Part shown: positions 9,601 through 56,958 of the stretch, piece by piece | How the letters are laid out: every line of letters begins with the position of its first letter | Numbering within the stretch: the first letter of the stretch is position 1 | Source: Beroe forskalii | Lineage: Eukaryota > Ctenophora > Nuda > Beroida > Beroidae | Length of the DNA: 64,000 nt | Reading direction: 5' to 3' | Assembly (NCBI GenBank): GCA_011033025.1 | Contig: WFMF01000041.1 | Location: 268,706 to 332,705 of the forward strand | Program-made: the position numbers and the translations under genes | The notes under the pieces: generated by a model | The model's input: the letters and a program-made list of their open reading frames with translations, nothing else | The model's database searches: none | What the model was told of the DNA's origin: nothing

Positions 9601-12600
9601 CTTCCCAAAGTCTTTGAAGTACATTGCACAAGCCCTCAGCTCTTCAACAGACGACTTGTCCAGCTGTCGCATTATCTCCATCAGCTTATCAGGCCACTTC
9701 TGTTTCCCAGCTATCTCGATAGCTTCTTTGAAAGCAGAGGCTGCAAGGTACAAGTCAATGGCAGATGCGGGGTCATTCGTTGATTTACACCACTCAGCTT
9801 GTTCACGAATGAGGCCCTTAACGTTTTTAGCATCTGATGAAGTTAAGAAATCTTTCGCATTTTCAAACTGCCGCAGATCACTGAACATAGCCATAGCCTT
9901 AGCTTCGTTTCCTGATTTCTTGTACATCTTAGCAGCTTCTTGGAACTCCCCTTTGAAGGCGTAGTAGTCAGCCAGGATCAGGTTATTGGTTGTTTCAGCA
10001 GCTTTGGACTGCTTCCTTTCCTCAATCTGGTGTATAAACTCCAGGTACCGCAGCTCTCTGACTCGAGTAAACGCTTTCTTGGCAACGTCCAGGTTCAGGT
10101 TTTTGAGAGACGCGTTAGCGAGCTGTAACCAGTCGTTGTTGGTAACCCCCAGACACGCCACGTTGTAGGCCGTATGGAACATCTTCTTCTCGATGTACTG
10201 GCTCATGGGGGCACTCTGAGGCACGTCCACAGCCTGCATCGTTAGGTTCTGGAGACAGAATATCTTGCTTCCTGTGAATCCCACCACATAACCCTGCATC
10301 TTCCTTTGGTGGACTGGGAAGTTGCTGGCTTTGATATTGAGGAAGCCATTGCTGGAGAAACACATCATGTCCTCGTTATGGGTGTTCCACGCCAGACTGG
10401 TTGCGTTGGGTTCCTGGAACAGCAGTTTCTTTGTCTTGATATCGTACACGGAACACGTTTGGGTTTCATCAATGATGGCAAGCTTGTTTCGACCCATGCT
10501 GATATCAATACACCTGATACACTGCGGCTGCTTGATTATAAGCATCGGGAATGGGTTATCCACGAATATCTTTAAAACTTGACCATTCCTGAGTCCCACC
10601 AGCAGTCCTTCCTTGCTCGGTGGACCTCCTATGACCTTGATATACCGGATATTAGCTTCCAGTACCCATTCCCTCTCCTTGATACCACTGAAAGAGTAGG
10701 ACTGGAGTCTGTGGTCTTTGCACAGGAGAATGTGATGTGCTGTGACAACAAGCAGATTACAATCAAATCTCTGCATGATCTTATCCTTCACTCGGTAGTG
10801 CATGTCAGAGACATCATCCGAGTACAACTCATACACGATTATCTTATCTGGCAGCTGAACAGCCAGTCTGTACTTGTAAATAGCGACCTTCTTCACCCAG
10901 TCCCGACACTTTATCTTCACCTTCTGGTCCTGTAGCAGGTTCTGTATAATCACATCCGTCATGTTCTCTCTGTAAGCATACCTGTCCTTGTACAACCCGT
11001 GCACTGTGTTGAAGTTAAGCTGCGTTACTTTGATGGAGCCGTCGTGACTGCCTGCAATCACATAGTTCTGAGAGAGGAACACATCTACACACCACGCCCA
11101 GGCACCCATGTCCACCACTTTGGTGAGGTAAATGCCTTCCTTGGTGTAGAGTCCTATTTCCTTGTTAGATCCCCCGATCAGAAGATACTCTCCCCCAGGA
11201 TACCACCTCATGCACCCCGGATCATAGCCGAGGTGTCTGTCCTTGCCGACTTGTCTTCCATTCAGCTGGTAAAACGATAACTTCTGGTTCCAGTCAGCCA
11301 CTGCCATTATGTCTACTGATTCTGACTTGGCTGGGTTCCAAGCGATGCACCAAATAGGAGCACCTCCAGGTCTCTCAACCTTTACTCTTTCCTCTCCTGG
11401 GGAAGTGCGAGTGATTTCTATGCATTTAAAGCTGTCTAAAGATGTATCAACTGAATTGGGTCAATTCTTATCATAAGTTGTTCGACCTGTCTTTATTGAA
11501 CACAAATTGAGTATGCTACACCTATCTTACACATTATTGAAGACATGCTTTTTAGGTAAAGCTAATTAAATTTTTTGCAACATGACACGTGGATTACTGA
11601 AATGAAGGAAAGAGTGAAGGGCACACACCTCCTTTGAGAGCTCTGACACTGATTTGCCCTGAGTAGTAACCAAGTGCAGCATACTGTCCATCTTTTGTCC
11701 AGCTACAGCATGTGATCTTGTTGGGGACCTTGTGCTTAACAACGGACTTTTGTTCTGGAGACCAGATACCAAAATCAATTGATGTACAGCTGATGAGGTG
11801 ACTGGTGACAGGGTTGTAGCACACTGACTGAATAGCTTCGTTGTGTTGATACTTCAGAATACCCACAAGCTCATCAGTCCATATGATAACTGTTTTGTCA
11901 GCACCACCTGAAACAGGACATGATCAGCTGACAACGATAATCAGATCAGAACTGATATAGTTGCATGGGTTACATACCAAAATCTAATCCAAATGTGCAT
12001 ATTTGAGCAATTTACCTATTATCTAGAAAATGTCAAACCTGAAGAAACACAAATCTTGAGTCCACCAAAATCTCTGTTTGACAGGTTACATTATCTGCAT
12101 AATATAAAACCTAACGTCCTCAGGACTCCTTGGACATAGACTTCCTGAAGTAATCAAAAACATAAAATGTCAAATGTCAAACCTGAAGCAAATCTTGAGC
12201 CATCTCTGTTGTAGCACACACAATACACTGCATCTTTGTGTCCCTTGAGAGGAGCTATGAATTCTCCATTAGCAGCATTGTAAACCCTCACATAGTTACT
12301 TGTAGCGGCAATAACTTTAGTTCCTGCAATGAATTTCATACCAGTTACCTAAAAAATTGAAAAGCTATCATAGCAAGCTTTCACAAATCACATAATCAAT
12401 CACCCTCTTTTATTCAATATTTTGTAGTTATCAAATTGTAATTAAGGAACATGTTTGTAAGTTAGAAACTTAAGAAATAGCTATTTTAAGGAGAAAGGAT
12501 AGATCTCTCTTAATTGTATTCTGTGACATTATTTATACATATCAAGCTAGGTTAGATGTTAATGCAAATTGAGCTAAAATAGCTTCCATGCCAACCTGTA

Positions 12601-12727: not shown

Positions 12728-13058
12728 AGCACTATAGTACTTGTCTCATTGCTAGAAAACTCAAGAGGAATTAGGAAAATTTAAATATTAAATTGATTTC
12801 TGTGTAGAGTTTTCAGGAAATACAAAAGCTAATCAATAACAATTTATGGACTAATGGAGTAATTGTGAGGAAATTTTCCTGATTCAATTCTTGAGCATAT
12901 ATGTTACTTCTTGGCTGAATTTGTCTTTGATTCATTGTCCACTGTATGTAACTAGCCAGAGGGTGGGAGATGTTTTTCAAATGACTACACTCCATGCTAT
13001 TGTAACAAATTCCACAGCCCTACAAATGTAAATATGCTGAAGATCGATATGTTTACTA
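12728..13058. other. IFT122 upstream region
   Basis: This AT-rich flank lies between the IFT122 start codon and a MITE. It must hold the IFT122 5' UTR and promoter, unless an upstream non-coding exon exists, but no clear TATA box or initiator could be singled out. Confidence 0.4.
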
Positions 13059-13570
13059 CTGTAAAGCCACATATTTTCGCGGGTGCTATTTTTCGCGTTT
13101 CTTTAAAATCAGACTAATTTCACGGTTTTAATTTTCACGCATTTCAATATCCCTTGAAGATAAACCAGTGCTTGTACGTGGTCATTTAACATTTTCGCTA
13201 ATTGCTGTAAACCTTGATAGCCGGTGATTGTACAAAGGCAAAAGTAATGAGGTGTCTTGTTCGTCTATGTTTACTTAAGTGTGTCTGTCAGACATTACAG
13301 CATGTCATTCGTAAACGATACTGAGATCTTAGTTGAGGGCTTAATGTTTCTAATGAGACACTTTGGGTTGAAAAATAATGCCTTGATGACAAACCAATCT
13401 ATCGAATACTTAAGAGGGAATAACGGCAAATGAATTGGACTCGAAAAACGCAAGTATATAAATTTATCTCCAAAATTGAAAATTAACTTCACGTCTGATA
13501 TTTTCGCGGATTTTCTTTTCCGAATAAATTCGCGAAAATTAATGCCTCGCGAAAATTAATGGCTTTACAG
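13059..13570 (+). mobile_element. TA-flanked MITE, copy 1, with 43-codon ORF
   Basis: The terminal inverted repeats start CTGTAAAGCCA and continue into ttttcgcg motifs, and both ends are flanked by TA, the target duplication of Tc1/mariner-type transposases. The 512-bp interior holds an ATG-to-stop frame of 43 codons at 13302-13433 (plus strand) beginning MSFVNDTEILVEGLMF and ending YLRGNNGK. It is preserved full length in a second copy at 15222-15799. Elements with actgtaaagccatta ends and tttcgcg subterminal motifs are common in aquatic invertebrate genomes; that comparison is from memory. Confidence 0.85.
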
Positions 13571-13861
13571 TATTTAAGTTTCAATAGACAGCTGTGCATA
13601 AAGGGTTATGTTTTAGCTTCTTTCGTTGCTGTCTCTAAGCTACCATAGTTTATTATTATATTATTATATGTAAAAATCCCTGACACACTCTGGTCGATTA
13701 CAGGAGGGGTTGAAAAAGAGGCATGGATTATTGTTCGGTAATCAAGCAGTCGGCCCACATACATGTAACAGGGAGTGACAGTTAGTTTTGGGCAAGCCCT
13801 TGATGCCTTTCTTCAGCCAGGTGATAGCAGTCACATTGACAGTCTTCTATAATCATGAATA

Positions 13862-14534
13862 GGGATCGTTCACATATTACGTAATCAATTTTTGGCCGAT
13901 TTCAACCCCCCCCCTCCCCCTCGTAATCAAGTTTACAGTAGTTGTATTTGTTACAATAACATGTAATGTAATCATTCGGAAACCCCCTCCACCCCTCTAG
14001 GTGATTACGTAATATGTGAACGATCCCATACTAAAATGCAACGGATGCACAGTTATGTTATTCTTAATTACTTTTCAGATTGCGTTCCTATTGAAAGCTG
14101 ACTTTACCCAGCCGACCTGGGCTGCTTTTATCCCATCTGTTCTTCTGAATCTTTCACGACGGCGAGGAAGGAACTTCAAGACAGCTGAAGATAAAGTCGG
14201 TGAAATCACTAAGGCTGTGTTTGACAACGTTAAGAACAAGAAATCAGGTTCCTTGTAAGTCACTTTTCAGTGTGATTCATCCCAATTTTCAAAAATCATT
14301 TTTCCCTGTTATCTTCAAGTTTCAAGTTGCGAGCGTTGCTTCGTTTAGCGGGAATTTCAGGTTAGGATCTTTACCGTAGCATTGAACTGGAATGCACCTT
14401 AATAAAACTAGCTGCAGCACACGATGCCACTACACCAAACTAAACTAGTTGTATTTGTTACAATAACATGTAACGTAATCATTCGGAAACCCCCTCCCCC
14501 CCTCCAGGTGATTACGTAATATGTGAACGATCCC
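13862..14534. mobile_element. Composite MITE enclosing a captured host exon
   Basis: A complete palindromic MITE occupies 13862-14027, with ends gggatcgttcacatattacg and its complement. A second copy of only its right half occupies 14446-14534 with the same end. The 418 bp between them (14028-14445) is not MITE sequence but a near-identical inverted copy of 29361-29780, an exon plus intron flanks from the TPR-MYND gene. The trinucleotide ATA follows both right ends and precedes the left end. The layout is that of a transposon that picked up host DNA between its terminal repeats. Confidence 0.8.
14028..14445 (+). pseudogene. Captured copy of TPR-MYND exon 6 with intron flanks
   Basis: The segment translates on the plus strand to IAFLLKADFTQPTWAAFIPS and onward to VKNKKSGSL, matching exon 6 of the minus-strand gene at 29554-29729 with about one residue changed in the exon. 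The 3' splice acceptor (ttacttttcag) and the 5' donor (ttgtaagt) are both retained, along with about 240 bp of intron. It is therefore a DNA-level duplication, not a retrocopy. The exon copy is potentially spliceable if transcribed. Differences cluster in the intron part, including indels. Confidence 0.88.
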
Positions 14535-15221
14535 ATATCATAATTCAATGCTGAATGAGCCATAAAAAAGTTCTTATGTAAATATGTGCATACAGTTTGA
14601 TTACAGGAGGGCTGAAAAGACACATGATTTACTCTTAGAACATCATGTGTGTCATGTGTGCAGATCCCACAGTCACCATAGAGTTCAAAAATACTTCAAT
14701 CCGTAGTGCAATCTGTAGTGCAGCCTTCCATCAATAGAGCAATCAGCTGCAGAAATATACATGTAGCTCAACATGTAGTTTGCAAATTTAATGTTATTTT
14801 TCATTCCAACTGCAGTACACTGTATTCAATTTAAGTGCAGTTTCTAAACTTTGACAAAATCTCCGAATCAGAGTAAAATATTGCATATGTTGAGAAAGCA
14901 CCAAACATTTATAATGGATGGTGTTTCACAATAACAGAATAAATATATCACATATCAATCAATAATAAATGATCAAAGGTTTAAGGAAGGAGAGTGAATA
15001 TAAAAATATAGGTAAGGAACATATTATGCAGTACAGTATGAAAATAACGCATCTGAATTATGACTAAAAATTATCTGAGTTAAAAAAAAGTCCAGATCAT
15101 TACAATTTTACCACTTACTGTTAAAAAACAATCCGTAGGATTAAAAAATAAATGAGAAGGTTTAAAAAAGGTCAATTTAATGCACTATGCAAGAATATTC
15201 TTTTGTCTTCAAAATGAAATA
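14535..15221. other. No gene seen; AT-rich spacer
   Basis: The interval between the composite MITE and the second TA-flanked MITE is AT-rich. It contains short homopolymer runs and no supported coding or RNA feature. Confidence 0.5.
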
Positions 15222-15799
15222 CTGTAAAGCCATTAATTTTCGCGCGGCATTAATTTTCGCGCATATATTTGGAAAATAAAATCCGCGAAAATATCAGCCG
15301 CGAAGTTGATTTTTAATTCTTGGAGATAAATTTATATCTGCGTATATTTTCTTGAGTCGAAGAAACTTGTACATTGTTAGTAGGTATAGCAGAGAGCACA
15401 CAGCTTCATTTGCCGTTATTCCCTCTTAGGTATTCGATAGATTGGATCGTCATCAAGGCATTATTTTTCAACTCAAAGTGTCTCATTAGAAACATTAAGC
15501 CCTCAACTAAGTTCGCAGTATCGTTTACGAATGACATGCTGCAATGTCTGACAAACAGAGGCACACTTAAGTAAACATAGACGAACAAGACACCTCATTA
15601 CTGGGGCACTGGGCTTTTGCCTTTATACAATTACCGGCTATCAAGGTGTACAGCAATTAGCGAAAATGACGAATGGCCACGTACAAGCACTGGTTTATTT
15701 TTAGGGAATATTGAAATGCGTGAAAATTAAAACCGTGAAATTAGTCTGTTTTTAAAGAAACGCGAAAAATAGCACCCGCGAAAATATATGGCTTTACAG
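15222..15799 (-). mobile_element. TA-flanked MITE, copy 2 (inverted), with 43-codon ORF
   Basis: It belongs to the same family as 13059-13570 in opposite orientation: ctgtaaagccattaattttc ends with a TA on each side. The 43-codon frame lies on the minus strand at 15406-15537 (MSFVNDTANLVEGLMF to YLRGNNGK). It has no stop or length change relative to copy 1, although most of the differences alter the residue. The outer ends are extended by an extra cgcggcattaattttcgcgc tract. Confidence 0.85.
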
Positions 15800-16055
15800 T
15801 AATGCAAATTAATAGAGGAACTGCAGAACAAGACGTAACCATTCGTAGGATGTTACCCTACCCTCGCGCGCGGCGCAACGTTCCACATTTGGACGTCACT
15901 TTGCAACCTCGCCATCCAGTCAGAAGAAATACACGGGGCAACGTCCGTCGACGTAACCATATTTTACTACGTACTAGTATTGCAGTGAGGTTTTATCTGC
16001 ATCATAGCATTAGCATAATAGCATATGACATCATCAGGCTGATTGTCTGACGTTC

Positions 16056-17011: not shown

Positions 17012-20000
17012 CTGATAAATCATGTGGTTACGCTCGCATACAGCGAAGAATTTACAGCGAATTTTGCCGAGTTCTCTTCTAACGTATGCAAAGGGGGGGG
17101 GTGACATGAGTAATTTTGAATAATTTTGAATATGAGTAATCAAGGCATTTTAAAGGGGGACTCAAAAATCATCATAATGAATATGAGTAATTTGTGTCGA
17201 AAATCAAAAATTTACTCAAAAATCATCAACATGAATAAGAGAAATTCCACAAAATTTGCAAAATTTACTCAAAATTACTCGCCTGTCGAAAATTTGAATT
17301 GTGGCCCCCACGAAACCCGTGACTGCGCACTATTCACGTAAGATTTGCAGGGCGCAAGTCATGCGACCAAACTTGTTACCGCATTTGATCGATAGCAGGA
17401 CACTCGTGGTTCCAACACATGAATGCAATGCTGTTATACGTTATTGTAATTGTATGTAAGTATGTAGACAAATAGTGACACACTTTACACGAGTGCAACA
17501 TGTAGATCGTAGCTTGACGGGGGGGGGGGGGGGGGAGTTAAGTTTTTAACTCCAGTTTCACACCTAAATCTACCTTCCAAATAGACACTGAAATTAGTGA
17601 GTAGACACCAATTAAGTGTGGAACTTTGACTTGAGTAAAGTGCGGATAGCCGACCAGTGTCAAGTGTGGACTGTACAGTCCACACTTGACACTGGTCAAC
17701 CATCCGCACCTCACTCAAGTCAAAGTTCCATACTTGATCCGACTTGATACCAGTCTTCGTTCCACAGTTGCCACCAGTTTACTTTCTACACTCCAGACCA
17801 GTCAACGTTTCAAACTTAACTCCAGTCTACGTAAAACACTTTTTACTCGAGTATGAGTTCCATACTTAACTCCAGGCTGCGTTCACACTTGACTTCAGCC
17901 CACGTTCCAACATGACGCCATTGTACGTTTCACAATTGACACTGCTCAATTTTACGTTTCACACTTGACACCGGTCTATTTAATCAGAAATAGGACGAGT
18001 AGAGTGGTTACGAACATCTTCAATTGTAACAATTAAAACGTCGTGTTCTTGTGATATTTCAATGAATATATCATTCATCATAGTCATACATTCTGAGAAG
18101 TTTATTGGTTAGAACATACAACTGACACGCAACATATTCATATCACTAAGCTCTTATCTTAGCTAAATCTATAAATAATTGAATTAAATTAATTTATTGG
18201 AAAATGCAATGCACTGAATACCTTAGTGGTAGAAATTAAGAAGTGTACTATTTAAGGCAGTAAGCGATTTTACTACCTTAAATAGTACACTCCTTAAATT
18301 CTACAAATCTTAATTTCTACCTACCGTAATTTTTACAATACCAAAATTTTAGAAAATTTTGCTAAAGTAAAGATTTATAAATTTACTAGCAGGCCCGTTG
18401 GGCCTGCAAATACACAGCTCACTCGGCGCTGCTACGCAGCACCTCGTTCGCAAATTCCAATGCCCACAATTCAAATCAACTAAATACTTTTTACCGCATC
18501 AAAAAATTCCAACCGCATCAAAAGTTATGAAGCTCCGAAATTAAAACAGCATTAAACCGAAATGTACGCGCGCGAAATTAATCTGCACGTGCAATTCCCC
18601 CATTGCGCGCGCGTTGCCATGGGGCGTGACGTACAAAGAAAAAACACAATCTGCGACTTTATAAGTAAGATACCTATCTTTTCTTTCACTACAATATTAA
18701 GCATTCTATTTTCTCTCAAAACAGGTTCAGAATTTTTCAGCGAAAGCATCAGTGCAGACAAAATCAAATTTGATATGATAAACAATCATCACTCGATAAA
18801 AATTATAGGCATTTCTTCAGCTTCTTCGTCTTCATTGACCCGTTTGCTAATCTGTTTCTCTAGAACGCATAGTTTTACTTTTGTCTATTTCATAGATTCC
18901 AAATAATCAAATAGATTGAATTCAATGAAAAAAAATCTGCCCTCTTCTTGTTTTCATATCGGTATTTTTGGCTGAAAATTGGTGAAACGACGTGAAATTT
19001 AGTCCTTATAGATTTGCCTGATTTTTGGAGAAATTTTACTGCCTTAATTAGTACACTTCTTAATTAGTACGTCCTTAATAAATACACTTCTTAATTTCTA
19101 CCACTAAGGTATATTATACGATAATCTACTGTCTGCTATAATGTGAAATACAATATACATTATACAATATACACAGCAATTGGCAATGTCAAGGCACGAG
19201 CACTGTACTCAGTACACGGTGACGTAATGACGTATGTGAGCTAGTAGAGAGAGAGAGAGAGAGAGAGTTCCCGCTCAAACCCTATGCTTGTCAATACGTC
19301 ACGGCATACCAAAACTCTGTTGCTCAGTGACTCTGTGTCTTGACCTTGTCAATAGCTGGGGAAAATTCTGCCCTTCAGTTGGTCTTGATACGTTGGTAAA
19401 TTGAATAAGAATAATGGTACTGATTTCAGTTTATCATTAATTAATGTTCCATCATCGTATTCCTGTATATATAAGCTTTCTTTAATTTTGCGTTTAAACA
19501 TTTTACTTTCAAACGTTAGTATATCACAATCCTCAAACGTAATTTGGCAACTTGGATTTGCCGCCAAGTTTTTTCAACTTCGGTCATACCAGTTCCACTT
19601 GTCTTCATGTGTTCTTCAAACCGTGTTCGAAAGAGCACGACAAGTCTCACCAATATACCGTCGCCCACAACTACAAGTGATCCTGTATACCAAATCATGT
19701 TTGAGGTGTTTTGGCTGTCTGTCTTTAAAACTGAACTTATGACATAATTTAGAATAACTGTTCAAATAAATTAACTGACATTTCCCCGGTAAATCCTTGC
19801 TAATACATTGTTTGACTTTCGATGAAATGTCGCCAATGTCAAACAATGTATTAGCAAGGATTTACCGGGGAAATGTCAGTTAATTTATTTGAACAGTTAT
19901 TCTAAACACATGATTTCAGTTTTAAAGACAGACAGCCAAACCTCAAACATGATTTGATAAATCACTGTAGTTGTGGGCGACGGTATATTCCAAGTTGTCC

Positions 20001-23000
20001 TCTTTCGAACACGGTTTTGAAGGATTGTGGAACTGGTATGACCGAAGTTGAAAAACGTTTAAAGTTGCCAAATTACGTTTAAACGCAAAACGTTTAAAAA
20101 ATGTTTAAACGCAAAAATTAAAAGAAAGCTTATATATACAGTGGGAATACGTGATGGAACATTAATTAATGATAAACTGAAATCATACCGTTATTCTTAT
20201 TCAATTTACCAACGTATCAAGACCAACTCCCCAGCTATTGACAAGGTCAAGACACAGAGTCACTGAGCAACAGAGTTTTAATGCCATGACGTATTGCGCC
20301 AGGTTTGAAGGGAACTCTCTCTCTCTACATGCACATGCGTCATTACGTCACCGTGTACTACAGTGCAATCTGATTCAATTGCTGTGTATTGTATAATGTA
20401 TTGCATTTCACATTATATAGCAGACAGTAGATTATCGTATAATATATTCAGTATTGCATTTTCAATAAATTAATTTAATTCAATTATTTATAGATTTAAG
20501 CTAAGATAAAAAACTTAGTGATATGAATATGTTGCGTGTCAGTTGTATGTTCTAACCAATAAACTTCTCAGAATGTATGACTATGATGAATGATATATTC
20601 ATTGAAATATCACAAGAACACGACGTTTTAATTGTTACAATTGAAGATGTTCGTAACCACTCTACTCGTCCTATTTCTGATTAAATTGACGAAGAAATCC
20701 CTATTCTACACACCACACCGGTCTATGTTCCAAACTTTACTCGACAGTGGAACGTATAATTGGAGTGAAGTGTGGATCGTAGATTGGTTTCAAGCGTCGA
20801 GCGTAGGTGTCGAGCGTAGGTAAGAATGAGACCGTAGAATGGTCTCAAGATGGAACGTAGACTGAAGTTCAGTGTGGAACCAGGCCCGTATACAGAGGGG
20901 AGGCTAGGGGGCTGCAGCCCCCGTCGGAAGAAAAGGTACCATTTCAGAAAAATAGTTAGAATAAAAGTTTTTTGACGGATAATCATAATTTCATACTTTG
21001 GCTTGGTTAGATAGTGGCAGTTTACTAGTTTAATCTTATTCTGACTGTTATAGCTCGTTTATATTTGATTGTATACCTTTTTGATGCTCTAATTTTGACA
21101 AATATCCTCCTGTACATTTCCTGTACATTTCTTTATTGTAAAAATCGACCTGCAGCACCCTTATTTCCCTAAAATGTTCCGGGGGCTCGGCCCTCTAACC
21201 CTCTTAGAGGGGTTTGCCCCTGGACCCTGCTGGGGGCTGCGGCCGCGGGCCCCCTGCCATGACCCTCGCTCCTGCTCGCGTGCACCAAGGGCCCCTCCGG
21301 AAAAAAATCCTGGCTACGGGCCTGTGGGACGGAGTTAAGTTTTTAAGACTGGTGCCAGCTATGAATCGTAAACCGCGTAAAAAAGTAAAACTATACCGGA
21401 AGTTCGTGTCAAGTTAGAATCCGGATCGTAGACTGGAGAAGTGGTGAAACTACCACCGAGACTGATGTGAAATGTGGATTAATGGATTATACTCTGGTGG
21501 CAAGTGCAGTTTCACACCTCAAGGCTCAATCTATGTTTGTAGACTCAGTCTAAACTCTAAAGTCCACACTTCACACCAATCTACGATCCACTCTAGTAAA
21601 CGTTCCACACTTTATTCGAGTCTACGTTGCTTTCATATAGAGTCTACGTTCACACTTAACTCAGGAGCTGCGTTCACACTTGAATTCATCTTCTTCAACC
21701 AGACCCCATACCATTCGGGCTGCAGTACAAATTGACAACAGTGTACCATTTCAGAAAAATAGTTAGAATCAATTTTTGACGGATACTATGTTTCACTTTT
21801 AATTCCAGTCTATTAAGTTGGAACTTTCTGACTGAATAGCTCGACGGGAGTTGATTTTAAAACTTTTTGATGCTCTAATTTTGACAAATATCCTCCTGCA
21901 TTTTGAAGCGTAAAACGTGGACTGGGTAAAATGTAAAACGCCATCATAGTGTCAAACTCCTCTTAGGGTTTAAAATTGACCCCTGGGGGCTGCTTGGGAT
22001 TAGAATATCTTGAGCTCATTAAGAATGGTCCGGAAAAAATCCTGGCTACGGGCCATGTGGGACTAATTCAAAGTTTTTAACGGAGAGTTAAGACTGGTGC
22101 CAGCTATGAATCGTAAACCGCGTAAAAAGTAAAACTATACCGGAAGTTCGTGTCAAGTTAGAACGTCCAATTGTGTGGATCGTAGACTGGAGAAGTGGTG
22201 AAACTACCACCGAGACTGATGTGAAATGTGGATTAATGGATTATACTCTGGTGGCAAGTGCGGATTTCACACCTCAAGGCTCAATCTATGTTGCAACTAG
22301 ACTCCAGTCTAAACTCTAAAGTCCACACTTCACACCAATCTACGATCCACTCTAGTAAACGTTCCACACTTTATTCGAGTCTACGTTCCACACTTCTATA
22401 CTAGAGTCTACGTTCCACACTTAACTCCAGGAGCTGCGTTCACACTTGAATTCATCTTCTTCACAACTTGACACCATTCTACGTGCAGTACAAATTGACA
22501 ACAGTGTACGTTCCACACTTAACTCAATTTCACGATCTACTATGTTTCACACTTAATTCCAGTCTATTAAGTTGGAACTTAGACAGAAACGCAGACGGGA
22601 GTTGATTTTTTTTAAACTTTGTGAAGTGGGTAACTTTGAGTAATAAGACTGCTTTGAAGCGTAAAACGTGGACTGGAGTAAAATGTAAAACGCCATCATA
22701 GTGTCAAGCTCAAGTGAGGGTGAGTAAAATTGATCCCGTGGCTGCTTGGGATTAGGAATATCTTGAGCTCATTAAGAATGGTCGGGATTTGAACTCAGAT
22801 TTTTCGACCATTTCACTAATTCAAACGGAGAGTTAAGACTGGTGCCAGCTATTTATAAAAATTTAAAACGATACCGGAAGTTTTCAAGTTAGAAACGTCC
22901 AATTGTGTAAAATTGACTTTTAAGTGGTGAAACTACCACCAGACTGATGTGAAATTTTTTGGATTATACTCTGGGGCAGTGGGGGGCCACGCCCCTTTTT

Positions 23001-29000: not shown

Positions 29001-31609
29001 AAAAAAACTAAGAAATACTACTAAAAATGTTGGATGTAAGGGGTAAAGTCAATTTCTTCACAAATACAGAGTCAAATTGAATTAGAGTAGTAATCTCAGA
29101 GAACAGCCCTACCTAAAGGAAGAGCATTCTTCATGCTGAGGAAATCGTTGAGGTACTCCAGATGATCAGCCAGTTTGACAATTCGTTCCTTGTAGTGTGG
29201 GGATTGAGCTGAATCTCTGCCGTATAGTAACGGCATCGCGTGCAAGACAAACCGTGAAACCAGCCTGAAATAGAGAGAATTTGTGTTCAGTACCTTTATC
29301 CGTCCTGTTAGTTGGGGAAATTCGTCAACCAAATGCTCCTCTATAAAACCACTGGCTTCGGTTTAGTTTGGTGTAGTGGCATCGTGTGCTGCAGCTAGTT
29401 TTATTAACGTGCATTCCAGTTCAATGCTACGGTAAAGATCCTAACCTGAAATTCCCGCTAAACGAAGCAACGCTCGCAACTTGAAACTTGAAGATAATTG
29501 CAACAGGGAAAATGCTTAAAAAGTGGGATGAATCACACTTAAAAGTGACTTACAAGGAACCTGATTTCTTGTTCTTAACGTTGTCAATCACAGCCTTAGT
29601 GATTTCACCGACTTTATCTTCTGCTGTCTTGAAGTTCCTTCCTCGCCGTCGTGAAAGATTCAGAAGAACAGATGGGATAAAAGCAGCCCAGGTCGGCTGG
29701 GTAAAGTCAGCTTTCAATAGGAACGCAATCTGAAAAGTAATTAAGAATAACATAACTGTGCATCCGTTGTATTTTAGTATCCAATAATCTAAAGCTGAGT
29801 GATGAATAAATTCTCCATTTGATCGCATCTTAAGAGAAAATTTTGTGCAATTGAACTGCACAGCCACCAATGAACTAATTTGATCCTCGACGCCACTTCT
29901 ACAGATGAAATATCTGTATCTATCCAGCTGAGTCCCTGATACGCGGTGTAAAGAGATGGCACAGCACATAAAACAGAAAGAGTTGAACCATTCCCTTCCA
30001 GTGCTAATCCGCATAGTTTCCTAGGAGAATTCCACTGTGAACACAGGTGAACTTGCGATTTCAAAAAAATCATTACTTCGGCTGGGAACAATATTTTTTG
30101 ATGCGGTAAAAATCTTCTAGTAGATGGCATTTTCAGGAAACCGACCTCGGACCCCCGGCACCCTAACATGAAAATTTAACAATCAATTGCTTATTATAGC
30201 AGTAACATCCAGATATCAACTCACTTCTGAGACAACGTTAGCGAAGGCGCTGAGAGATTGGAGCTCCCCGAGAGTCGTGGGTTCTGAGACTGAGCCCACC
30301 TTCAGACTAGAGGATTGCATGTGTTCAGCCATGTAGGAGAACGCAGAGTTGGGTAGTACGTCGCCACTGCCGTTGTTCATCTGGGAGAAATTGAATACTT
30401 AGTCAGCAAGCTGAATCTTAGGTGGCAATTCAACCGGAATAATTCTGTACAATGCACATAAATAAATTAAGTACCCAAGGTGAATGTCCAGCTGATAAGA
30501 ATGGAAATAAACGATACGTTTCATAATTTGAATTGTTAAACATAGTCCTTTATCCATATTCATTTAGTTTATAACTATTTCAACTCGCCTTCTTTTGTCA
30601 GACTTAACATCAATCGTGACACAGAATTCGAGCTTAGAATTCTTATTTAGCTTTACACTCTTCACTTTCTGGAATGAAGCAGAGTATTATTAGCTGCATC
30701 ATTATTCATTAGCTGACCAAAGAATGTGTAATTCACAGCATTCCTGGAACTTACAAAATAAGATATCAAATACAAGTGTAATCTTCACTCAAAGAAGCCA
30801 CAGCTCATCCCAGCATACAACTCGCTAACAACTCACATTATGGGGGATGCAATCCGGCAAGACCATCAGTTTCTGCGAGACTCTGAAGTACCGTGTCTGG
30901 GACACGTAGGGGATGGGTTTGGGGGCACTTAGTCTGATGTTAGCATACACCTCGTAATCCTGTTGCCAGAGTGCCGAGGGGTGGTGACACTTTATGATAA
31001 CGTCGTGAGATGCTGTGGTGCTGGGCTCAAAGGAAATGGACCTGCAGAGAGATTGTAATTTATTAAATTTAATGTAATTTATTCAATCGAAATTAGGAAA
31101 AAAAGCAATAATTTAAGAGGGGGAATAACACTTTGAAATCAAGTATGATAGCAATGAAAACTGTAATTCAGGCACCAATTCAACTTACCATGGGATACTC
31201 TTCACAAAAACTATGTGATCCACAAAGAGGCGCTTCCGCGAGTATATCTGCTCAGGTGATATCTCAAACTTAAACTCCTCGTACATTGCCGTACCTGAAT
31301 CAAGTAAGCGGGTAGTTGAAAACAGAGAGACTCAAAGGAAAACAAGTTAAACAAGTAGGCTTTTTCAAAAATAAATCATGACTTCTGTTATCAAGCGTTC
31401 ATAGATTGTGATAATTCATATGACGCCTGATTGGAGTTTCAACCGCTTTGAATGTACTGGTGGTAACCTGGGACTCGTCTGAGCATTCTGTTAAAAGTTT
31501 CCAGTTTCGTAGGGGAGCTCGCTTCCTTTGTCAAGAACTTCCTCATGTTCCCGATGAACGTTTCCTCTGGCGAACCGGCCTTTCCGTTAACCAACCCTTT
31601 CTCAGCCAT
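16894..31609 (-). CDS. TPR protein with C-terminal MYND zinc finger, 16 exons
   Basis: I do not recognise an ortholog. Sixteen exons chain in phase to about 754 residues: 31444-31609, 31189-31294, 30837-31041, 30585-30668, 30225-30380, 29554-29729, 29113-29264, 28785-28922, 28223-28449, 27816-28011, 27492-27585, 26940-27011, 26683-26821, 26395-26546, 26153-26236 and 16894-17011. The start is the ATG opening MAEKGLVNGKAG. TPR-like helices occur late (GNEYHKERKFEKALEMYDKA; VSSCLELGRYHDAVVDATI; RFKRVKALSNLKQWGPALHN). The C-terminus is a MYND finger: CIVC from exon 15, then CKQC, YCSVEC, H and C from exon 16, ending YGKK. MYND fingers bind proline-rich partners and TPRs bind peptides, so an adaptor role is likely but inferred. 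The N-terminal 450 residues have no motif I can name. The last intron is 9.1 kb; all others are under about 0.6 kb. Confidence 0.82.
17560..17985. repeat. Degenerate 26-28-bp tandem repeat with a perfect palindrome
   Basis: Imperfect repeats of ttccacacttgactccagtc / tacg fill this stretch. Within it, 17655-17700 is a perfect 46-bp palindrome centred on actgt|acagt, which continues with mismatches to about 150 bp. The same motif family recurs at 20700-20880 and throughout 21330-23300, so the whole block probably derives from one satellite. Confidence 0.75.
17986..20690. mobile_element. Head-to-head Penelope-like element remnants (GIY-YIG end)
   Basis: Left arm (17986-18220 plus 19110-19842) and right arm (19845-20690) are inverted copies meeting near 19843. 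Minus-strand translation of the left arm gives VYRITCSCGRRYIGET and EHMKTSG, the GIY-YIG endonuclease signature with its CxC insert. A block DCDILTFESKMFKRKIKESL follows. Both are typical of the C-terminal part of Penelope-like retroelement proteins. The right arm carries the same region on the plus strand. Only the 3' portion is present, and the copies are broken fossils with several disruptions each. Head-to-head partial copies are known for this family. A later element (18221-19109) interrupts the left arm. Confidence 0.7.
18221..19109. mobile_element. 889-bp TA-flanked DNA element nested in the left arm
   Basis: The inverted ends ccttagtggtagaaattaag and the complement are flanked by TA on both sides. 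The opposite arm of the host inverted repeat (near 20430-20445) lacks the element and shows a single TA at the matching site. This proves that 889 bp were inserted with TA duplication. Subterminal regions hold further short inverted repeats (agtacacttcttaa). No transposase is seen. The first seven bases, CCTTAGT, are shared with the element at 25218-25720. Confidence 0.88.
20881..21325. mobile_element. TIR element with CAGGCCCGTA ends
   Basis: The left end caggcccgta and right end tacgggcctg are perfect inverted repeats, followed inward by G/C-rich tracts (ggggctgcagcccccgtcgg; cctccggaaaaaaatcctgg). The flanking octamers tgtggaac and tgtgggac differ at one base and could be an 8-bp hAT-type duplication if the last two bases are counted with the flank. 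There is no transposase. Elements with these ends are widespread in marine invertebrates, as I recall. Confidence 0.65.
21325..23545. repeat. Three tandem units of about 745 bp with patchwork divergence
   Basis: Units begin at about 21330, 22080 and 22830, each opening with gagttaagactggtgccagc. They share a satellite middle (cgttccacacttaactccag) and a tail containing aaaacgccatcatagtgtca. The middle unit looks like the parent sequence. The first is interrupted by 20-40-bp tracts identical to the neighbouring 20881-21325 element. The third is interrupted by tracts from an unrelated AT-rich repeat (gatgaataaaarttttgaya). Each unit ends with a tRNA-like B-box segment. Confidence 0.75.
22735..22828 (-). 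repeat. tRNA-derived SINE-like tail in the tandem unit
   Basis: On the minus strand this segment reads tagtgaaatggtcgaaaaat, then ctgagttcaaatcccgacca. The core GAGTTCAAATCCC matches an RNA polymerase III B box (GGTTCRANNCC) well. A related copy lies at 23445-23540, and a shorter one at 21995-22030. No full tRNA cloverleaf or A box could be built, so this is a SINE fragment rather than a tRNA gene. Confidence 0.45.
23546..25217. other. Intron stretch without recognised features
   Basis: This part of the long terminal intron is non-repetitive at the scale I can read. It has a small GC-rich patch near 24010-24060. Short reading frames in it lack splice context or motifs. Confidence 0.45.
25218..25720. 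mobile_element. 503-bp TA-flanked MITE with iterated subterminal motif
   Basis: The ends CCTTAGTACCAGAAATATAG and the complement are flanked by TA on both sides. Just inside both ends, the motif gatattaaggcgacaa is repeated three or four times, a layout resembling transposase-binding iterons. The terminal CCTTAGT and downstream AGAAAT agree with the element at 18221-19109, suggesting one mobilising transposase. No protein is encoded. Confidence 0.85.
27030..27125. repeat. 25-bp minisatellite in a TPR-MYND intron
   Basis: Four imperfect units of aagttggcaagggtttgtaag lie a few bases upstream of exon 12 on the minus strand. No function is apparent. Confidence 0.6.
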
Positions 31610-37381: not shown

Positions 37382-38995
37382 TCAAACCACACTACATTTC
37401 CGTTTAACGAAACTCTTGAGTTCATTCTCTTCTTCAGCCCCCAGTTTTTCATGAGAAATAACTTCATACTGAGACGATGACACCGGTAATGAGTTTGGCT
37501 GAATGGTGAAAACGCCAGTCAAGAATATCAGCTGTTTTTGGCAAGACTCCAGACCTTGTCTGAGGAATGTTTTGACGGACGGATTAGTACTACTTACTGG
37601 TTTCAGTTCCGCGAAGTTAAGTGAAGTGTAGCCTATCATTTTTGACAGCAATGACTCACTGAGTCGGCACTCAATGTGCCCCGTGAAGTCACTTAACCTC
37701 GCCTGGACTGTCCACTCGGGAACCGGTGTTAACTTGGATAACAAGGAGGAAACAGTTGCAGTAATGCACACAGGGAATTCCAGATCTGTTCGAAGATCAT
37801 TGATGGGGATTGGTTTTCCACGGTTCTGATCTGGCTCTTCGATTGGTTCGAAGAATTCGGCGGTAAGACTGTCAACGAATCCTGATAGAGGTTCATCTTT
37901 TTGCAAACCAAAATTCGAAATTGAGGCAGGCGCAGGATTTCTAGCCTCTGTTTGGTTTATTGTGTTGGATGGATTCGTTGGTTCACTTTTCACTGTCGCT
38001 TCACATTTTACTGTAGGTTTTAGAGAAGATGCTTTGGTCAGAACGCCCCTATTCGATGATACTTTGGTGTTCTCCTGATTCTTGTTATTACTGGAACTGA
38101 TTTCAGGGTGTTGAATGGTAGTTTGAACTGCGTTCCTCTGGTTCGAAGATGCCGTGCTGGGTCCAGGTATCCTAGTATCTCTGGTTTGCAAAACGCTGTT
38201 ACTTGCTACGCTTCCCATACTTTGAGGTTGACGGCTGTTTTGAGACACATCAGTACTCATGGCATGATTTCTGGGAGCAGGAGGGTTTGAATTAGTAGTA
38301 TCTACTCTCATAACATTCTGATCTCGAGGGTGACCCCTTTCTTTGGGAATATCATTAGTATCAATATCGTCCATTTCGTCATCATCATCGCCTTCTAGAG
38401 CAGTCTTCAAGACTTGCTCCTGACTGTACTGAGCTCTCAAACTCTCGACACAACCGCCCAATATCCTAAAGTTACCTGGTTCCAACAACAGCATACCAAT
38501 TCTACAAGTAATATTGGAAATAACCATCTTAGAGCCCGATAAAAGATTCACTGAGAGCTGAGAACAAGGCTTGTACTCCATTGCACTGATGATATTGGTC
38601 CCATCCGTTAGGGTTAAAAACATCATCCTAGAGGGAGGCGGTTCGTTGTAATAAGATTTGTTTTGAGTGCTTTCAGTGGAAGGTTGTCCTCTGAGCTTCT
38701 TTAGTTGTGAGTAACAAGATGAACCAACATCCATGATGGATATAAGTTGGAGAGTAAATGGCCCTGCTAACTGATTCTTTGGTATTTCCATACTGATCGC
38801 TTCAGGAGGAATAGGTTCGCCATAGGTATTGGAAATGTCTGAAACAAGCCAGTTTTTATACATCTGATCCGCATTAGAAACTCCATTTCTGAGCTGTTCT
38901 GCTATCCAAACCTTGCTGACTGATACACCATGATGTTTGGAAGAGATGTGGGTAGATATGGCATTGGTATCTTCAGGAACAAAAGATGTTGGCAT
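37382..38995 (-). CDS. RMI1: RecQ-mediated genome instability protein 1
   Basis: RMI1 is the OB-fold scaffold of the BLM-TOP3A-RMI dissolvasome, which resolves double Holliday junctions without crossover. This is a single uninterrupted reading frame of about 537 residues (human is 625). I start at the ATG opening MPTSFVPEDTNAIS; a GTG three codons upstream is not a likely start. The N-terminal DUF1767 and OB1 region shows WIAEQLRNGV, YSQLKKLRGQP, MMFLTLTDGTNIISAMEYKP and CRIGMLLLEPGNFRILGGCV, all close to the family. The middle, about 210 residues, is low-complexity and Ser/Asn-rich, as in other RMI1 proteins. The C-terminal OB2 reads WTVQARLSDFTGHIECRLSE and ends in a basic tail. The absence of introns contrasts with its intron-rich neighbours, so a 5' UTR intron or an old retrocopy origin is possible. 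Confidence 0.94.
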   Translation of the reverse strand: MPTSFVPEDTNAISTHISSKHHGVSVSKVWIAEQLRNGVSNADQMYKNWLVSDISNTYGEPIPPEAISMEIPKNQLAGPFTLQLISIMDVGSSCYSQLKKLRGQPSTESTQNKSYYNEPPPSRMMFLTLTDGTNIISAMEYKPCSQLSVNLLSGSKMVISNITCRIGMLLLEPGNFRILGGCVESLRAQYSQEQVLKTALEGDDDDEMDDIDTNDIPKERGHPRDQNVMRVDTTNSNPPAPRNHAMSTDVSQNSRQPQSMGSVASNSVLQTRDTRIPGPSTASSNQRNAVQTTIQHPEISSSNNKNQENTKVSSNRGVLTKASSLKPTVKCEATVKSEPTNPSNTINQTEARNPAPASISNFGLQKDEPLSGFVDSLTAEFFEPIEEPDQNRGKPIPINDLRTDLEFPVCITATVSSLLSKLTPVPEWTVQARLSDFTGHIECRLSESLLSKMIGYTSLNFAELKPVSSTNPSVKTFLRQGLESCQKQLIFLTGVFTIQPNSLPVSSSQYEVISHEKLGAEEENELKSFVKRKCSVV

Positions 38996-39542
38996 ACTGG
39001 GCACTTGGACACTTACTTTTTCCTGTTTTCAGGTGATTCCCAGCATCGAGATTCATAAAAGCTATGAACTGTGAGATCAGATTTATGATACTTACCTAAG
39101 TTAATTTCCAAATATTGAAATGTAAGGAAGTAAGAAATTAAGAAGTCAATACCTAGTCACGATATAGGAGAAGATACAAATTACAATTCAAGAAAACGTT
39201 ATGTCATGTTTTCCTTGGGTTTATCAAAGTATCGCACACTCACACAGGAACATACCCAACATATCATCATCAAGAAATTGATCTTCCATTGCAGACAATA
39301 ATATAACAAGATACAAGTAGTGGTTTATTAGTCAAGCACATGATAATCAACAAGATGATGAGTTACCAAGATTTCATATTATGGAAATAAGTTTAACCAT
39401 AGCATGACAAGAATCGATAAATTTCCCTTTCTATCTACACCTTATAAGCTTATAATATAATAGATTTAGTTTTCGAATCTCCATTTGGCTGGTTTTTCGT
39501 GATAAAACCTTTAGATCGTTTTCAGCTTTTCAGAATCAACTC
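38996..39542. other. Intergenic: UBL/UBA gene 3' end to RMI1 5' end
   Basis: This spacer of about 550 bp is AT-rich. It must contain the RMI1 promoter or an untranslated first exon, and the 3' UTR of the upstream gene. No further feature was resolved. Confidence 0.45.

Positions 39543-46952: not shown

Positions 46953-56958
<10,006 letters not shown>

Follow-up and report, generated by a model that had tools for sequence, protein, structure and literature searches.

An inverted exon copy between a complete and a half MITE in Beroe forskalii, a probable single-copy Pack-TIR-type chimera

Introduction

In plants, gene fragments lie within non-autonomous terminal-repeat elements known as Pack-MULEs and Pack-MITEs. 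A literature search under the name Pack-MITE returned no animal report; a search for Pack-TIR led to a survey reporting 370 Pack-TIRs in 100 animal genomes, which describes them as mostly single-copy and cis-biased, often with microhomology (Tan et al. 2021, PMC8277862). According to the figures given there, 56.9% of 281 unique Pack-TIRs lie within 15 kb of the parent, 67.6% have microhomology at one or both breakpoints, and four (1.4%) are multicopy. The breakpoints are described as skewed to element interiors, and the gaps are small, with a median of 4.6% of the element (PMC8277862). The word Harbinger is absent from the main text of that paper. An earlier animal case is the Turmoil-1 transduplication of C. 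elegans, in which protein-coding fragments sit in the inverted terminal repeats of the element, as described in PMC2572040. Tandem MITE arrays in coral, as presented in PMC2872659, are ascribed to replication slippage.

The original prediction for the locus analyzed here was that a MITE had captured an intact exon from a gene 15 kb away, and that such capture is little documented in animals. The latter statement is out of date, given the 370 cases listed in PMC8277862 and the earlier C. elegans case in PMC2572040. The process is known from animals already, and the locus is a clean but unremarkable further case that, by itself, leaves the general picture unaltered. It adds a young, base-pair-resolved animal case of DNA transposon-linked exon duplication in which the splice sites look as if they could work.

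Results and discussion

Structure of the composite and its source

The composite occupies positions 13862-14534 of the window, the 64-kb stretch of DNA that was analyzed. Its order is ATA, MITE1, ATA, inverted gene-segment copy, right half of MITE2, ATA. MITE1 (13862-14027, plus strand) is a complete 166-bp element with perfect 26-bp terminal inverted repeats. Comparison of the flanks placed one copy of the target-site duplication, ATA, at its left (13859-13861), and the inner-junction ATA (14028-14030) flanks MITE1 on its right while also supplying the first 3 bases of source homology. The gene-segment copy (14028-14445, plus strand) is an inverted copy of 29361-29780 and consists of an intron part, an exon, and a second intron part. 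The copied 176-bp exon (14079-14254, plus strand) differs from its source by 2 substitutions and retains an AG acceptor and a GTAAGT donor. The right half of MITE2 follows (14446-14534, plus strand); it corresponds to element positions 78-166, is broken at the centre with its right terminus intact, and is 98.9% identical to positions 77-165 of another MITE copy (L006). Thus 77 of its 166 bases, 46% of the broken element, are gone. The second outer copy of the duplication, again ATA, lies at 14535-14537. Both outer ends of the composite therefore carry an intact terminal repeat (26 of 26 bases) with matching ATA flanks.

Alignment of 14028-14445 with 29780-29361 gave 95.5% identity over 424 columns (E 0.0), a match far beyond chance, which confirms the predicted arrangement of an inverted, near-identical exon copy between one complete and one half MITE. 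The junctions had been predicted to fall exactly at MITE ends. This holds for the left junction; the right one lies mid-element, at position 78 of 166 of MITE2. The homology to the source starts exactly at the ATA adjoining MITE1 and stops exactly at the start of MITE2, and microhomology was not detectable at the right junction. The intron edges were present as predicted, with the splice sites and flanking intron copied along with the exon. Because intron edges are retained on both sides of the exon, the segment was copied at the DNA level and is not a retrocopy. These results indicate that the composite holds a DNA-level copy of host DNA placed next to and into MITE sequence.

The source segment (29361-29780, minus strand) lies in cis, 14,915 bp from the copy, in a TPR-like gene; its 176-bp exon (29554-29729, minus strand) is an open reading frame. 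When the 216-Mb assembly was searched and all three candidates were scored, copy and source were each found once. The sole third match was 74% identical over ~94 bases, covered the last 94 bases of the copy, and fell inside the dispersed-like stretch at 29325-29454. The suggested search for further copies of an exon-bearing MITE thus found the composite to be single in the assembly. No homology to the MITE family was found at the source edges. One edge is spanned by 29325-29454, which resembles dispersed sequence elsewhere in the genome at 70-88% and in which no relation to the MITE was seen. In the source, the bases preceding the ATA that opens the homology are unrelated to the composite; ATA accounts for 1.1% of start positions in the 1,580 bp around the source.

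The source gene had been named TPR-MYND. The TPR part of this name stands weakly, with a TPR_1 match in hand-joined downstream exons below the Pfam cut-off (E 5.7e-6; 26.4 bits versus 27.8), and the MYND part was not borne out, as the gene has one C-x2-C pair and no Pfam MYND match. The captured exon joined to the next exon matched no Pfam family.

The MITE family

Terminal-repeat sites of the family numbered 1240 in forward and 1217 in reverse orientation in the 216-Mb assembly (at most 2 mismatches), and the same pattern read backwards, used as a control, gave 0 sites. With a length of 166 bp, 26-bp repeats, a 3-bp duplication, more than 1,000 terminal sites per strand, and many similar copies, the family has the properties of a MITE. 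Among 64 pairings of element ends less than 3 kb apart at sampled loci, 53 had identical 3-bp flanks. These 64 are a non-random sample, as many loci were picked as best matches, and in two of them (L047 at 225 bp and L045 at 1555 bp) the paired ends belong to separate elements that are nested or adjacent. The 53 clean duplications comprised 38 TAA/TTA, 5 ATA/TAT (including that of MITE1), 4 AAA/TTT, 3 AAT/ATT, 2 CTA/TAG, and 1 CAA/TTG. At two loci, MITE copies were inserted at TTA inside other MITE copies (L047, 324-486; L048, 344-510), and an old remnant of the same family (76%) lies at 12945-13010 of the window.

A 3-bp, TWA-like duplication is taken as a mark of Harbinger, and other superfamilies with 3-bp duplications also exist. 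The preponderance of TAA/TTA (38 of 53) agrees with this mark, and on the target-site duplication alone the family likely belongs to PIF/Harbinger. The genome contains 35 matches to DDE_Tnp_4 (PF13359). Among 5-kb stretches from four of these 35 loci, none had MITE termini on both sides of the transposase; in one locus (L103) a diverged non-autonomous relative lies beside a PF13359 transposase.

Longer elements with the same termini were also observed. A family of 1.1-1.2 kb, represented by L011 (1501-2686) and its relatives, has a common interior with short open frames. Among the elements listed, L011, L014, L023, L025, L028, and L045 have this interior at ~90% and L033 at 77%. The L011 interior is in turn repetitive, with matches at 94-97% (best 40 of 305 candidates; itself 100%), and the family could be either a deletion derivative of an autonomous element or an old amplified capture. 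Six of the seven listed elements of 420-482 bp (L030, L034, and L041-L044) have one interior in common, and L019 (1486 bp) combines ends of the 450-bp type with extra internal sequence. L031 (482 bp) was considered as a second capture and rejected, its interior being a dispersed repeat found at many places (best 40 of 1047 candidates); MITE termini were absent from five other loci with this interior (L082-L086). No recognised piece of a host gene was found in the longer elements sampled.

Divergence and age of the copy

In a global alignment, copy (418 bp) and source (420 bp) differed by 8 substitutions in 414 aligned sites and by 3 indels. Alignment of copy and source had been proposed as a way to date the capture, and it gave a K2P distance of 0.020, summed over both branches, which matches the MITE divergence of ~1.2% on one branch. 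In 42 sampled MITE copies, the median divergence from the consensus was 1.2%; MITE1 differed at 2 of 166 sites (1.2%) and the half MITE2 at 1 of 89 (1.1%). With 8 substitutions counted, the age of the capture would be in rough agreement with that of the MITE burst.

The differences between copy and source comprised 1 transition and 7 transversions, whereas the MITE copies had 58 and 27, respectively (Fisher P 0.003). Half of the substitutions (4 of 8) fell within 30 bases (P 0.056, simulation), and the indels lie in or beside that stretch, so that the differences are partly clustered near 14268-14300. The excess of transversions perhaps reflects error-prone synthesis, or an alignment effect around one complex change.

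The boundaries of the copied segment bear on two other explanations. An older inverted segmental duplication could have received two MITEs independently, and the family is certainly abundant, as the terminal-site counts given above illustrate. However, the homology ends at MITE sequence on either side, and on one side at the middle of a broken element; the source edges lack MITE; and the flanks outside the composite do not match those of the source. Independent insertion into an older duplication, which the original prediction had set against its own reading, also fails to account for the half MITE2, because insertion yields whole elements. We rejected this explanation on the boundaries and consider it very improbable. 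The other explanation is that the assembly wrongly joined a gene fragment to repeats. Repeats at joins are where assemblies fail, and the locus is judged from assembled sequence alone, but the copy differs from its source by the substitutions and indels described above, both junctions are single clean joins with ATA flanking the elements, and the joins lie in an 820-kb contig. An artefact of this kind is likewise very improbable.

Proposed formation by gap filling in place

We favour the explanation that the composite is a single-copy Pack-TIR-type chimera built in place by gap filling, and give it a rough probability of 0.8. By this route, MITE1 and MITE2 would have come to share one ATA duplication, one element inserting into the duplication made by the other, and MITE2 would then have suffered a break or been excised, leaving on the left an end that terminated in ATA. 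This end would have annealed to an intronic ATA of the gene 14.9 kb off, and ~415 bases would have been copied from there. Synthesis would have returned to mid-MITE2, either that of the sister chromatid or that of the resected right end, without detectable microhomology. The three ATAs fit this scheme, because a 3-bp duplication common to two elements should appear as one triplet in three places. Also in its favour are the scarcity of ATA, both among the clean duplications (5 of 53, MITE1 included) and around the source (1.1% of positions), the source edges free of MITE homology, and the agreement in age. The middle one is also the joint with the source, whose homology begins with ATA, and we infer that it acted as microhomology. 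Several features count against gap filling: microhomology is lacking at the right junction, abutting pairs with a shared duplication are rare, and a terminal left breakpoint with 77 of 166 bases lost is unlike the typical case of Tan et al. The clustered differences and the transversion excess between copy and source also weigh against it. An empty paralogue of the composite site was not present among the scored matches to the flanks (best 40 of 47 and best 40 of 187). No function is proposed for the product, which is most likely a neutral scar.

The predicted mobile Pack-MITE, captured elsewhere and transposed here as a unit, agrees with the intact outer 26-bp inverted repeats and their matching ATA flanks. 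The composite is nevertheless a single copy in the 216-Mb assembly, and nothing in that assembly shows movement of it as a unit; unless it hopped locally, its landing 14.9 kb from the source would have to be put down to chance, and so would the inner ATA. The three ATAs, together with a cis source 14,915 bp away in 216 Mb, therefore speak for repair at the site rather than for arrival of a finished chimera. With the copy single and the source in cis, mobile capture was rejected as the leading reading and appears unlikely.

A variant in the order of events, which overlaps gap filling in place as a sub-case, is that a single MITE2 was broken and gap-filled and that MITE1 inserted later in the left ATA. 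It calls for neither more nor fewer insertions, and three ATAs would result as well. MITE1 and the half MITE2 are equally near the consensus, so that their ages give no order, and insertion of one family member into another is seen at L047 and L048. The later element would have to pick exactly this ATA, and ATA/TAT is a minority duplication in the family (5 of 53, including MITE1); this objection weighs little, because a comparable event is required if the dimer came first. This order has a real, if minority, chance of being right, and if so, the Pack-MITE appearance of the composite would be only superficial.

Excision or hairpin as possible causes of the break

Gap filling requires a break, for which there are two possibilities. 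One is excision of MITE2 by transposase, which is favoured because the left breakpoint is terminal and the ages match the MITE burst. The other is a hairpin of two abutting elements around their shared duplication, which would also put the breakpoint at an element end, as seen on the left.

Abutting pairs with a shared duplication are rare in the genome: the pattern was found at three loci, one of which (L099) lacks the left element. The other two (L097 and L098) have intact abutting junctions, each with one shared triplet. At L097 (1347-1624), two head-to-head MITEs share TAA; the second, which has other repeats alongside, is truncated beyond its midpoint, with positions 1-107 matched and no right end in the locus examined. 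At L098, the shared triplet is TTA and the far flank is ATA, so the triplet is not repeated. The full pattern of triplet, element, triplet, element, triplet is thus shown by neither locus. Both junctions are predicted to fold as ~26-bp stems with a 3-base loop that is the shared duplication (L098, -23.7 kcal/mol, z -12.5; L097, -19.9 kcal/mol, z -9.5). The present composite junction (14002-14056) folded no better than shuffles (z -0.24). The right breakpoint lies ~6 bases from the centre of the foldback of MITE2 itself.

Such a two-element junction might be a built-in break or fork-stalling site at which the loop triplet primes template switching, a model that we regard as speculative and rather doubtful. 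If it is true, both breakpoints would lie at hairpin apices, the left one at the loop of the lost junction and the right one at the MITE2 foldback, and adjacent MITE pairs would be hotspots of exon capture. L097 and L098 are precedents for shared duplications, short of proof of the hotspot idea. The target-site triplet, apparently doubling as priming microhomology, bears on the choice among excision, a hairpin break, and a start by fork stalling.

Comparison with described systems

The composite was compared with the definitions in the Methods of Tan et al. 2021 (PMC8277862), using BLASTN-type tools in place of the BLAT of that paper. Its interior is 418 bp (range, 100-5000 bp) and lies between parts of one MITE subfamily, and each flank contains 26 of 26 terminal bases (at least 10 bp). 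The parent is unique, with 95.5% identity (at least 90%) and 420 bp against the 418 bp of the copy (length ratio, 80-120%), and intron is kept on either side of the exon, which sets it apart from a retrocopy. The 100 bp beside the parent, which should be free of transposable elements, have no MITE homology, yet the dispersed-like 29325-29454 (70-88%) crosses the edge. A multicopy mobile Pack-TIR or Pack-MITE is amplified with differing duplications, and here there is one copy.

As in the animal Pack-TIRs described in PMC8277862, host DNA lies between terminal-repeat parts, in a single copy and with the parent in cis (here 14.9 kb away). The resemblance extends to identity (~98% when indels are set aside), to a copy equal in length to its parent, to microhomology at one of the breakpoints, and to retained introns. 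In contrast to the single split element described there, the composite contains a complete element and half of a second; one breakpoint is at an element terminus and uses the 3-bp duplication; and 46% of the broken element is lost, as against a median of 4.6% (PMC8277862). The composite is like plant Pack-MULEs, as presented in the same paper, in having a gene fragment within non-autonomous terminal-repeat elements. Unlike plant Pack-MULEs and Pack-MITEs, it shows no amplification and no sign of transposition of the chimera, and its source is in cis. Turmoil-1 likewise has protein-coding fragments in an animal terminal-repeat element, where they sit in the inverted terminal repeats by the account in PMC2572040; here one fragment occurs once, between element parts. 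MITE copies are neighbours here as they are in the coral arrays of PMC2872659, which are attributed to slippage, whereas the present neighbours seem to have one 3-bp duplication in common, a pattern indicative of insertion into a duplication.

Neighbouring genes and other features of the window

The copied exon reads on the plus strand. On each side it has a recognised minus-strand neighbour, IFT122 and the source gene. IFT122, which matches solved IFT122 chains at E 1e-248, lies to the left of the composite. The farthest-upstream coding exon located for this gene is 12181-12324, and the first 23 residues of the protein were left unplaced; the composite may therefore lie in the first intron of IFT122 or upstream of the gene, antisense either way. 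No plus-strand gene was recognised around the copy in the ORF lists. The suggestion that the exon could be trapped into transcripts is thus unsupported, given minus-strand neighbours and no recognised plus-strand gene; judged from its splice sites, trapping would be possible in principle.

An inverted pair at 13057-13584 and 15208-15801, 82% identical, surrounds the composite, and the outer ends have a common ACTGTAAAGCCA-like sequence; the pair probably represents two copies, or arms, of another repeat family. A second inverted pair of ~248 bp (17974-18220 and 20445-20690, 96.8%) flanks a long imperfect palindrome at 19110-20446. ARAGORN found no tRNA in the 64-kb window. An RMI1-like gene is located at 37385-39028 on the minus strand (RMI1_N_C, E 3.2e-31). 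An LTR retrotransposon at 51075-56181, with reverse transcriptase, protease, gag, and RNase H matches, appears to have inserted recently, because the two 130-bp direct repeats between which it lies are 100% identical.
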